Below, in pieces: positions 15,663-19,828 of a DNA stretch of 64,000 nt. Position numbers and translations under genes: made by a program. The DNA comes from Actinomycetes bacterium. Its GTDB lineage: Bacteria > Actinomycetota > Thermoleophilia > RBG-16-64-13. The notes below the pieces were generated by a model. The model searched no databases and was not told the origin of the DNA. It worked only from the letters and a program-made list of their open reading frames with translations. The stretch lies in the NCBI GenBank assembly GCA_024637035.1, contig JAGXFW010000005.1, positions 1-64,000 on the forward strand, given 5' to 3'. Positions within the stretch are counted from its first letter, which is position 1; every line of letters begins with the position of its first letter.

Positions 15663-16046
15663 ATGGAGACCGAGAAGAAGTACGGCGCCATCGCCATCGA
15701 GACCAACGAACTCGCAGCGTGGCCCAACCCCGTTCCCGAACGGCCCTATCTGGTGTCGATCGACGTTCCGGAGTTCACCTGTGTGTGCCCCCAGTCGGGC
15801 TATCCGGATTTCGCCACCATCAGGATCCGGTATCAGCCGCGCGACCGCATTGTGGAACTCAAAGCGCTGAAGCTCTACATCAACGCATATCGCGATGTGG
15901 CGATCTCGCATGAAGCCGTCACCAACAAGATCCTCGACGATCTCATCACGCTGCTGGACCCGCGATGGATGAGGGTCACCGGCGACTTCAACGTGCGGGG
16001 CAACATCAAGACCATCATCCGGGCCGAACACGGGCAACGCGCGTGA
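15663..16046 (+). CDS. queF: NADPH-dependent 7-cyano-7-deazaguanine reductase
   Basis: A 127-residue unimodular QueF (YkvM type) that reduces preQ0 to preQ1 in queuosine synthesis. The nucleophilic cysteine lies in [14 protein letters not shown]. The QueF motif is [14 protein letters not shown], and HE in [10 protein letters not shown] is the substrate-binding pair. ATG 15663 follows CCAGGAGACCG. It is the first gene of queF-queC-queD-queE and overlaps queC by GTGA. I looked for a preQ1 riboswitch in the 137-bp leader and found only a GC-rich hairpin. Confidence 0.95.
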
Positions 16047-16753
16047 CCGTGTCGCCCGCGAACCTGCAGTCCCCCGCAGAGGATCCTGCGACCGCGCACT
16101 ACCTGCTGCTGAGCGGCGGCGTCGATTCCTCGACACTTGCCGGCTGGGTTCAGCACTCCCATCGAGGCGCGCCTATCGTCGCGATCACGTTCATGTACGG
16201 GCAGAAGCACGGCGTCGAGTGCGACGCGGCCTCTGCCGTGGCGGCACACTACGGCCTGGAGCATCGCGTGGTCGGGCTTAGCGCGATCGAGGGCTCCGCT
16301 CTCACAGACGATCACCAGGCGGTGCCCGAAGGGCGCGATCTCGCCACCGTGACCGGAGTCGCGCCCACCTACGTGCCCGCGCGCAACCTGCTGTTCTTGG
16401 CGACTCTCGCCTCGATCGCAGACGCTCACGGTCCAGCCGACCTATGGCTTGGCGTGCACCGTGACGATCACACAGGCTACCCGGACACTCGGCCGGAGTT
16501 CGTGCGGGCTGCCGATGAGGCGGTTCGTCTGGGCACGCAATACGGTCTGCGGGTCAAGGCCCCGTTCGTGGAGTGGTCGAAGGCGGACGTGGTCCGCTGG
16601 GGGGTCGGGCACGAGGTGCCGTACGATCTGACCCTCTCCTGCTACCAGGGGAGCCGTCCTGGTTGCGGAGTGTGCGACACCTGCCAGGCGCGCATCGAAG
16701 CGTTCCGCGAGGCCGGTGCAGTCGACCCGATACCGTACAAGGTGGAGGGCTGA
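16043..16753 (+). CDS. queC: 7-cyano-7-deazaguanine synthase
   Basis: A 236-residue ATP-dependent enzyme that converts 7-carboxy-7-deazaguanine to preQ0 with ammonia. The PP-loop motif [12 protein letters not shown] is near residue 18. The C-terminal zinc site has four cysteines (LSCYQ, CGVCDTC). The GTG start at 16043 overlaps the queF stop as GTGA; GTG 16049 is an alternative. Length is normal. Translational coupling and operon position support the preQ1 pathway role. Confidence 0.94.
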
Positions 16754-16756
16754 CCT

Positions 16757-17119
16757 TTGAGGACTACCGTGACCAAGATACTCACCTTCGACGCCGCCCA
16801 TTCCCTGCCCGAACATGAGGGCAAGTGTCGCAACATCCACGGCCACACATACACGCTCGAGGTGTCCGTGGAGGGTCCGGTGCGGCACGGCGGCCCTGCC
16901 GACCGCATGGTCATGGACTTCGCCGACCTTCGCGGGCGGGTGGCTGAACTGGTCATCGATCACGTCGATCATCAGTACTTGAACGATCTGTTCGACTTCG
17001 CACCCACTGCAGAGGCACTGGCCGCATGGGCTTTTGAGAGACTACGCGATTCGGGCCTCCCCGTGGCGCGCGTCAGGCTCTGGGAGACTCCCACGAGCTA
17101 CGTCGACGTTACGACCTAG
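16757..17119 (+). CDS. queD: 6-carboxytetrahydropterin synthase
   Basis: A 120-residue homologue of pyruvoyl-tetrahydropterin synthase that makes 6-carboxy-tetrahydropterin from dihydroneopterin triphosphate. The zinc histidines are in FDAAHSL and IHGHTY, and the catalytic cysteine in GKCRNIHG. A C-terminal glutamate (LWETPTSY) binds the pterin. TTG 16757 is preferred because GGAGGG lies seven bases before it; GTG 16769 is the alternative. It starts three bases after queC. GTP cyclohydrolase I (folE), which makes the substrate, is not in the window. Confidence 0.93.
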   Translation: MRTTVTKILTFDAAHSLPEHEGKCRNIHGHTYTLEVSVEGPVRHGGPADRMVMDFADLRGRVAELVIDHVDHQYLNDLFDFAPTAEALAAWAFERLRDSGLPVARVRLWETPTSYVDVTT

Positions 17120-17127
17120 GGGTCGGC

Positions 17128-17748
17128 GTGCGTGTTCTAGAGGTGTTCGATTCGTTGCAGGGAGAGGGCGTCTGGGCGGGTGTCGCCATGACGTTCGTAC
17201 GCCTTGCCGGATGCAATGCGTCAGACCTGCGCTTGGCGTGCCTGGCTTGGTGCGACACGCCGCAGAGTTGGAGGCGCGACGGCGGCACCGACACCGACAT
17301 CTCTGAGATCGTGGAGCAGGTGCGGCAGAGCGGTCTGGGAAGGGTCTGTCTCACCGGGGGTGAACCTCTGCTTCAGGGTGAGAGCGTCGAGAGCCTCGTC
17401 GATGCGCTGCAGCACGTCGGGGTCCTCGTGCACGTCGAGACCAACGGCACCCTGCCACTTCCTGATGGACTCCGACCGGACTGGGTGACGGTGAGCCCGA
17501 AGCCGCCTGTTCACTTCATCGATGACCGCTTGCGAGGGATGGTAGATGAACTCAAGGTGGTGGTCGACCAAGACTTCGTGGCGGCCCGGGTAGAGATGTT
17601 GGCGGCGGACCACCCCTCGGCCGCTGTGTGCCTCCAGCCGGAGGCGTCTCGTCTGGCCGAGACCGGTGCGGTCGCGACCGCCACGGTCATGGCTCATCCG
17701 GGGTGGCGCCTCTCCATCCAACTCCACCGCGTGCTGGGGATTGCCTAA
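17128..17748 (+). CDS. queE: 7-carboxy-7-deazaguanine synthase (radical SAM)
   Basis: A 206-residue radical SAM enzyme that ring-contracts 6-carboxytetrahydropterin to CDG. The N-terminal FDSLQGEGVWAGV and FVRLAGCN segments, LTGGEPLLQ and VETNGT are family features. The cluster cysteines are spaced C-x8-C-x3-C (GCN...ACLAWCDT) rather than the canonical CxxxCxxC. Other non-canonical spacings exist in QueE, but this one is unusual. The GTG start is eight bases after queD. The stop overlaps the stop of the convergent gene by two bases. Confidence 0.9.
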   Translation: MRVLEVFDSLQGEGVWAGVAMTFVRLAGCNASDLRLACLAWCDTPQSWRRDGGTDTDISEIVEQVRQSGLGRVCLTGGEPLLQGESVESLVDALQHVGVLVHVETNGTLPLPDGLRPDWVTVSPKPPVHFIDDRLRGMVDELKVVVDQDFVAARVEMLAADHPSAAVCLQPEASRLAETGAVATATVMAHPGWRLSIQLHRVLGIA

Positions 17749-18271: not shown

Positions 18272-19093
18272 ATGGCTACACGAGAGATGATCAAGATCGA
18301 CGAGGTACTCTGCAACGGGTGCGGACTGTGCGTGCCGGCGTGTGCGGAGGGAGCTCTGGAGATCGTTGATGGGAAGGCTCGTGTAGCCGCCGAATTCTAC
18401 TGTGACGGTTTGGGCGCTTGCCTCGGCGAGTGTCCGGAAGGTGCCCTGACGATAGAAGTACGAGAGGCCCCCGAGTACGATGAGGTCGCCGTGGAAGCGC
18501 GCCTGCGCGAGCTCGGACGCCCGTCCTTGGCCGCCTCCGGACACGAGCACGGCAACGGCCACGCGGCGCACGCTCCCCATCATCAGCCAGCGGAGGCGCC
18601 GGCTGCGCACGTAGGATGCCCGGGCTCGCTCGCGCGTGACATGCGCAAGCCTGAGGCGGCGTCCGCTCAGGCGTCGACCACAGCGGATTCGGAGGAGCAG
18701 CCGAGGGAGAGCTTGCTGCAGAACTGGCCGGTTCAGCTCGGCCTTGTCAACCCCAACGCGCCCTTCCTCCACAACGCAGACCTGTTGATCGCCGCCGACT
18801 GCGCGCCGTTCGCATATCGCGATTTCCATTCGGAGTTCCTCGAGGGCCGAAGCCTCGTCATCGCCTGCCCGAAGCTCGATAACGCCCAAGCGCATCTCGA
18901 GAAGCTGGCCACCCTGTTCCACGCCGCGCAGCCCCGCTCGGTGCAGGTGGTGCGCATGGAAGTCCCCTGTTGTGGCGGGCTGGTGGCTCTGGCTACGCAG
19001 GCAGCGGAGTTGGCGGGTCTGAGCGTGCCCGTCGAGGAGATCGTCGTGAGCATCGGGGGCGAGCGACTCACCCCTGCGACCGCCGTGCGCTGA
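18272..19093 (+). CDS. Dicluster ferredoxin-type iron-sulfur protein
   Basis: A 273-residue soluble protein. The N-terminal 65 residues form a 2[4Fe-4S]-like domain: CNGCGLCVPAC and CDGLGACLGEC. A His-rich linker (about residues 90-108, many His in an Ala/Glu background) and a conserved CPGS segment follow. The C-terminal domain includes NWPVQLGLV, ADCAPFAYRDFH, ACPKLDN and EVPCCGGL, with further cysteines. This architecture is found in anaerobes as an uncharacterised redox or regulatory protein. ATG 18272 has GGAAGGAG upstream. Expression is probably controlled by the operator at 18169-18196. Electron partner unknown. Confidence 0.8.
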   Translation: MATREMIKIDEVLCNGCGLCVPACAEGALEIVDGKARVAAEFYCDGLGACLGECPEGALTIEVREAPEYDEVAVEARLRELGRPSLAASGHEHGNGHAAHAPHHQPAEAPAAHVGCPGSLARDMRKPEAASAQASTTADSEEQPRESLLQNWPVQLGLVNPNAPFLHNADLLIAADCAPFAYRDFHSEFLEGRSLVIACPKLDNAQAHLEKLATLFHAAQPRSVQVVRMEVPCCGGLVALATQAAELAGLSVPVEEIVVSIGGERLTPATAVR

Positions 19094-19140: not shown

Positions 19141-19629
19141 CTAGCGGCCCTCGTCCGAGAGCTCCTCGAGCACACCCAGGATGAGCGTGATGTCGCGCTG
19201 CTCCGCGATCTCGGCGTGGTAGGCCCAGTGGGTCACCCCGCGTCGGTCGAGAACGAATACGGATCGTCGCGGGTGTCCGCTCTCCTCGTCGAGCACGCCG
19301 AAAGTGCGGGCGACCTTCCCGTGAGGCCAGAAGTCGCTGAGGAGAGGGTAGTCGAGGCCCCCGCACTCCTTGGCGAAGGCGCGGTGTGACGCGGTCGAAT
19401 CGCAGCTGATGCCCAAGACCTGGGCTCCGAGCTCAGCCATCCTGGCGCTGTACGCCTGCAGGATGGGAAGCTCCCTCGTTCACACGGGTGTCCAGTCGAG
19501 CGGATAGAAGAACAGCACCACGTTCTTACCCGTTGGGCCGTGGTAGGTCGACAGTGTCTCGGTGTCGCCGAGGTGCGAAGGCAACGTGAAGTCGGGGGCC
19601 GCTGCTCCGATGGGAAGCGGTTCGCTCAT
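19141..19629 (-). CDS. Peroxiredoxin with in-frame TGA at the catalytic position (probable selenoprotein)
   Basis: Read through one TGA, the gene encodes 162 residues of an AhpE/BCP-like peroxiredoxin. It starts at ATG 19629 with AAGGAGAGG upstream and runs through FFYPLDWTPV, then TGA at 19482-19480 (codon 50), then TRELPILQ and the rest of the fold (LGISCDS, PLLSDFWPHGKVARTFGV). TGA falls exactly where relatives have the peroxidatic cysteine of TPVCT, so TPVUT is the natural reading. Everything else is intact, and a stem-loop follows the codon. Cys63 and Cys75 are candidates for resolving residues. It should reduce peroxides. The downstream part (19440-19141) has no ribosome-binding site of its own. 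Confidence 0.85.
19437..19466 (-). promoter_or_regulatory. Candidate bacterial SECIS hairpin
   Basis: On the coding strand, 13 bases after TGA, CCATCCT pairs with AGGATGG. After a GCA bulge, GGCG pairs with CGCC around the loop UACAG. That gives 11 pairs in 30 bases. Bacterial SECIS elements lie within the coding region just downstream of UGA with their apical loop at about this distance, so position and shape fit SelB recognition. Confidence 0.65.
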
Positions 19630-19828
19630 GGAGATGACCTCTCCTTCGTCGTGAGGGGCTCGGCTCTCTAAGCTGAGGTGCGCCGTCTTGTTCGGATAAT
19701 CTCCTGCAGGTCGCCGGGCCGAAACCTGCTTGGAGATCTTGCTTCAGGTAAGATTGGTGTGGAAGCCGCCCGGAGTTCCAGTTGGCGGCGGTCTCGTGTG
19801 TTCGAGTTCGCTAGCAGGAGGAGTCTCC

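Follow-up and report, generated by a model that had tools for sequence, protein, structure and literature searches.

The peroxiredoxin locus

The features of the locus, which lies in the window (the 64,000-nt stretch of DNA analysed as a whole), are itemized in Table 1 together with related genes elsewhere in the source genome. The core of the locus is a peroxiredoxin gene on the minus strand, no strand having been given in the initial annotation. Its frame is interrupted only once, by a TGA at codon 50, in the context LDWTPV-U-TRELPILQ. The earlier reading that this TGA replaces the peroxidatic Cys in a frame of 162 codons is confirmed in both coordinates and motif. Residues 7–132 match the Pfam family AhpC-TSA (PF00578) with 122.6 bits (E = 1.2e-35), continuously across the TGA, and the column of the peroxidatic Cys coincides with the TGA in the motif P43-x3-T47-P-V-U50. 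The section upstream of the TGA had been credited with its own ATG and ribosome-binding site, and an RBS-like sequence, AAGGAGAGG, is indeed found, separated from the ATG by 8 nt.

The order glgP, prx, 4Fe-4S protein and queE is kept in relatives with long enough flanks, except for a same-genus relative that has a different gene in the place of glgP. The gene for the ferredoxin-like 4Fe-4S protein converges on that of the peroxiredoxin, and the two are neighbours in each of the five relatives examined. The adjacent queC, queD and queE-like genes (7-deazaguanine synthesis; named by eye) form a cluster that is partly conserved beside the locus. Other read-through TGAs were sought in the window from codon usage, and the top candidates have no redox-type context and, judged by eye, resemble antisense reading of other genes.

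Table 1. Positions of the features discussed. Coordinates are those of the window except where a contig of the source genome (C number) is given.
Feature	Position	Strand	Basis or remark
Predicted selenocysteine-type peroxiredoxin, AhpE-like, AhpC/TSA family	19141..19629	minus	Read-through translation, Pfam, PDB sequence match, dN/dS
Start ATG; stop TAG of the peroxiredoxin gene	19629-19627; 19143-19141	minus	162 codons
TGA, predicted Sec50, peroxidatic position of PxxxTxxU	19480..19482	minus	TGA at same codon in homologues
RBS-like AAGGAGAGG	19638..19646	minus	5′ of peroxiredoxin ATG; read from sequence
bSECIS-like stem-loop in coding sequence	19437..19466	minus	Fold, stem-score comparison, covariation
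Upper hairpin GGCGU-ACA-GCGCC	19444-19456	minus	Part of stem-loop 19437..19466
Ferredoxin-like 4Fe-4S protein	18272-19093	plus
queC, queD, queE-like genes	15965-17748	plus
selD	C7:14250-15176		TGA in GSG-U-ACK
Formate dehydrogenase alpha (FdhA)	C17:101839-103884		Sec codon in RL-U-HSS
TlpA/Prx-like thiol:disulfide oxidoreductase	C31:45131-45469	minus	TGA in WGTW-U-PTC (UxxC)
AhpC/TSA-domain protein	C3:40465-40833	minus	TGA in NRGFV-U-PYC (UxxC)
Glutaredoxin-like protein	C28:101807-101983		TGA in PT-U-PDC (UxxC)
Glutaredoxin domain fused to thioredoxin-reductase-like protein	C30:170764-170943		Fused in frame

The stem-loop following the UGA codon

The RNA 3′ of the UGA can be folded into a stem-loop lying wholly within the coding sequence. 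It begins 13 nt past the UGA, as the initial annotation had it, and is formed by 7 + 5 pairs with a 3-nt bulge and one U-G pair, making 12 pairs rather than the 11 originally counted. Folded alone the hairpin of the window is unremarkable (z = −1.5, with 10 of 200 shuffles as good), and by the folding energy of the whole region TGA and Cys genes can scarcely be told apart (p = 0.06). With the pooled sequences as input, RNAalifold returned no consensus structure; this is probably due to the register of the stem shifting by a base or two.

Stems were sought at each offset after the UGA, using synonymous-codon randomisation (500 trials) as the control. The short-stem potential of 26 TGA genes has a sharp peak with the loop centre at +29 nt, where the value is 6.4 compared to 3.0 in the Cys genes. 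Within this zone the best stem score is 8.38 for the TGA genes, against 5.80 for all Cys genes (p = 5e-8) and 5.34 for the closest of them. Synonymous randomisation of the TGA genes gives a score of 6.47 ± 0.34, and the observed value was reached in none of the 500 trials, while the Cys genes have no significant excess of stems over their own randomised versions (p = 0.06). The five-pair stem covaries in 19 aligned genes, with a score of 0.370 versus 0.186 ± 0.05 in shuffles (0/500), and each version of the stem slid from this position scores lower.

The bSECIS model, as given in PMC13188914, places a loop of 3–9 nt at 16–37 nt past the UGA on a stem of 4–16 bp, and requires a G within the first two positions of the loop. 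The hairpin of the window has a 3-nt loop located 28 nt past the UGA and a 5-bp upper stem, and so fits these limits of position and size. The apical loop of the minimum free energy structure (−17.8 kcal/mol) is ACA, without the bSECIS loop G; the G enters the loop only when one or two terminal pairs are open, giving GUACA (−15.8 kcal/mol) or GUACAGC (−13.5 kcal/mol). A search for a SECIS downstream of the TGA had been proposed initially, and the hairpin found there, conserved with the TGA and covarying, is judged to be a bSECIS-like element that accompanies the TGA form only and is absent from the Cys genes.

Selenocysteine machinery of the source genome

The source genome is a draft of 3.57 Mb in 34 contigs. 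The prediction that it should encode a selenocysteine system was borne out by selA, an adjoining selB, tRNA-Sec and selD. On contig C26 selA (549.5 bits; cut-off 267.9) is followed directly by selB (345.5 bits; cut-off 242.25), and the tRNA-Sec, with the anticodon UCA (72.6 bits; gathering score 47), is found ∼27 kb from them on the same contig. The selD gene (402 bits) has its own TGA in the canonical site, followed by a strong hairpin, and a TGA-bearing selD is present in 17 of the 18 genomes of the family (the source genome included). The FdhA gene also has its canonical Sec codon. Since selA, selB, tRNA-Sec, selD and a Sec-type FdhA are all present, the source organism decodes Sec.

Distribution and conservation of the TGA

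The peroxiredoxin is encoded in six of the 18 family genomes, that of the window among them, and all six have the TGA at codon 50 and both selA and selD. The only nearly complete family genome without selA and a true selD has no peroxiredoxin either. Among 104 homologues from many phyla the site codon is TGA in 27, TGC in 63 and TGT in 14, and never TAA or TAG; thus the Cys expected at the same codon in relatives occurs in 77. The record labels of the TGA forms are Actinomycetota, Chloroflexota, Zixiibacteriota, Bacillota, Myxococcales, Deltaproteobacteria and SAR324. A search of plasmid records added only distant homologues. SelA is present in 25/27 genomes with the TGA form compared to 14/32 with the Cys form (Fisher p = 8e-5), a rough figure given that the genomes compared are related rather than independent and include draft assemblies; the two TGA-form genomes without SelA are both drafts.

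Six changes of the Sec label are needed on a tree of 103 sequences, against a mean of 23.5 when shuffled. The starred branches force at least two Sec/Cys changes and a single origin is unsupported, so that Sec and Cys have been exchanged more than once; the tree is unrooted and gives no direction for the exchange.

When the window gene is compared with the homologue from its own genus, dN/dS is 0.02 before the TGA and 0.19 after it. Comparison with two other family members gives 0.16 and 0.20 before the TGA, and 0.21 and 0.33 after. These low values show that the section 3′ of the TGA is translated and constrained, under purifying selection. The catalytic residues Thr47 and Arg122 are found without exception in the 27 TGA forms. 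Other cysteines are less constant. Within the family Cys76 is retained by most members but not by one, and Cys89 is missing from two; positions 76 and 81 are Cys in 12/27 and 9/27 of the TGA forms respectively, and five of the 27, one family member included, have no Cys besides the site.

If the TGA were a nonsense mutation truncating the protein at residue 50, the gene would be a pseudogene, and read as a plain stop the codon would indeed leave a 49-residue peptide. Yet the TGA is shared by six family members that differ down to about 62% identity, and the further disabling mutations that such relatives might have carried were looked for and not found, there being no other stop or frameshift in any of the six. 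Moreover the stop is without exception a TGA that falls on the catalytic Cys, the dN/dS after it is well under 1, and the catalytic residues 3′ of it are conserved, making a pseudogene very improbable.

A split gene, in which translation stops at the UGA and restarts downstream to give two polypeptides that assemble, appears similarly implausible. The initial annotation had the downstream part without a start. There is in fact an in-frame ATG at 19440, but it has no correctly spaced ribosome-binding site, in which respect the annotation holds, and the methionine that it encodes is not kept in most relatives, being shared with the nearest one only. The assembled enzyme would lack its catalytic residue, and the machinery for Sec is present.

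An error of sequencing or assembly converting TGC or TGT to TGA might be entertained for a draft genome in 34 contigs, but is exceedingly unlikely given the same TGA in six separate family genomes and in 27 homologues across several phyla. Lastly, organism-wide use of TGA as a sense codon (code 4 or 25; Trp or Gly) can be dismissed, as ordinary genes of the window such as that of the neighbouring 4Fe-4S protein end in TGA, and Trp or Gly at a peroxidatic site that is Cys in homologues would be inactive.

Proposed mechanism

We consider it very probable (∼96%) that the gene encodes a selenoperoxiredoxin, with the UGA decoded as Sec50 under the guidance of the hairpin. The insertion of Sec, the peroxidase activity and the choice of reductant in the following scheme are what we infer from the sequences. 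Translation would be initiated at the ATG at 19629. At codon 50 SelB carrying Sec-tRNA-Sec, guided by the downstream hairpin, would decode the UGA, and translation would then run to the TAG. Sec50 would be activated by Thr47 and Arg122, as is Cys in other peroxiredoxins, and would reduce hydroperoxides, being itself converted to a selenenic acid that is then reduced by a thiol.

A one-Sec cycle is favoured because no resolving Cys appears to be conserved, and an AhpE-like cycle of this kind with an external thiol or redoxin is most likely. Cys76 may assist in the protein of the window, as a selenenylsulfide. The mycothiol route of AhpE is doubtful here because no gene of the source genome passes the cut-off for the mycothiol ligase gene mshC (251 bits vs 485), and the reductant probably differs from that of AhpE. 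Glutaredoxin-like genes are present in the genome. One encodes a thioredoxin-reductase-like protein with a glutaredoxin domain fused to it in frame, and the fusion is a possible candidate for the electron donor. Another glutaredoxin-like gene has its own TGA in a UxxC motif, and its product is probably a selenoprotein.

Comparison with known peroxiredoxins

Peroxiredoxins with Sec at the catalytic site were said in the initial annotation to be known already, and those with the TxxU motif are indeed an established family (PF00578/COG1225), with 12 members listed in 2006 (Zhang et al., PMC1794560) and reviewed since (PMC9312934, PMC13188914). The predicted protein resembles them in its AhpC/TSA fold, Sec in PxxxTxxU, Cys homologues and downstream bSECIS, with no difference in mechanism. 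Neither the uncultured actinobacterial family nor the AhpE-like branch is named in the available parts of these three papers.

PrxU of Eubacterium acidaminophilum has been studied experimentally (Soehling et al. 2001, cited in PMC13188914). It too has Sec at the catalytic position. However, the protein of the window scores 68.6 bits with the PrxU model (NCBIfam NF040737; cut-off 270) and is ∼70 residues shorter than the model, placing it by these measures in a different subfamily. The six best PDB sequences are all of Mycobacterium tuberculosis Rv2238c/MT2298 (AhpE), the best with an E-value of 7e-27 (1xvw, 4x0x, 5id2). The signature PLLSDFWPHG is common to both proteins; AhpE, a one-Cys peroxiredoxin, uses Cys, whereas the protein of the window is predicted to use Sec.

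Three AhpC/TSA-domain proteins were found in the source genome, and each has an active-site TGA, in the contexts TPV-U (window), W-U-PTC (contig C31) and V-U-PYC (contig C3). The TGA of the TlpA/Prx-like gene on C31 is followed by a compact hairpin, GGGCG-GAGA-CGCCC. Both this protein and that on C3 are probable selenoproteins.

Standard annotation would label the peroxiredoxin gene as two fragments or a pseudogene. Its reading as an AhpE-type selenoperoxiredoxin would add an actinobacterial member to a family whose members have come chiefly from comparative genomics. What is new is modest, namely the AhpE-like branch in an actinobacterial family and the active-site TGA in each of the three AhpC/TSA proteins. 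The occurrence of TGA (27) and Cys (77) forms side by side allows the two to be compared cleanly, and the SECIS-like hairpin is seen only with TGA. At roughly even odds, the TGA genes constitute a widespread group of AhpE-like selenoperoxiredoxins, distinct from PrxU, that work with a single Sec and need no resolving Cys, and the whole AhpC/TSA-family thiol-peroxidase set of the source genome, three of the three proteins found, would depend on selenium.
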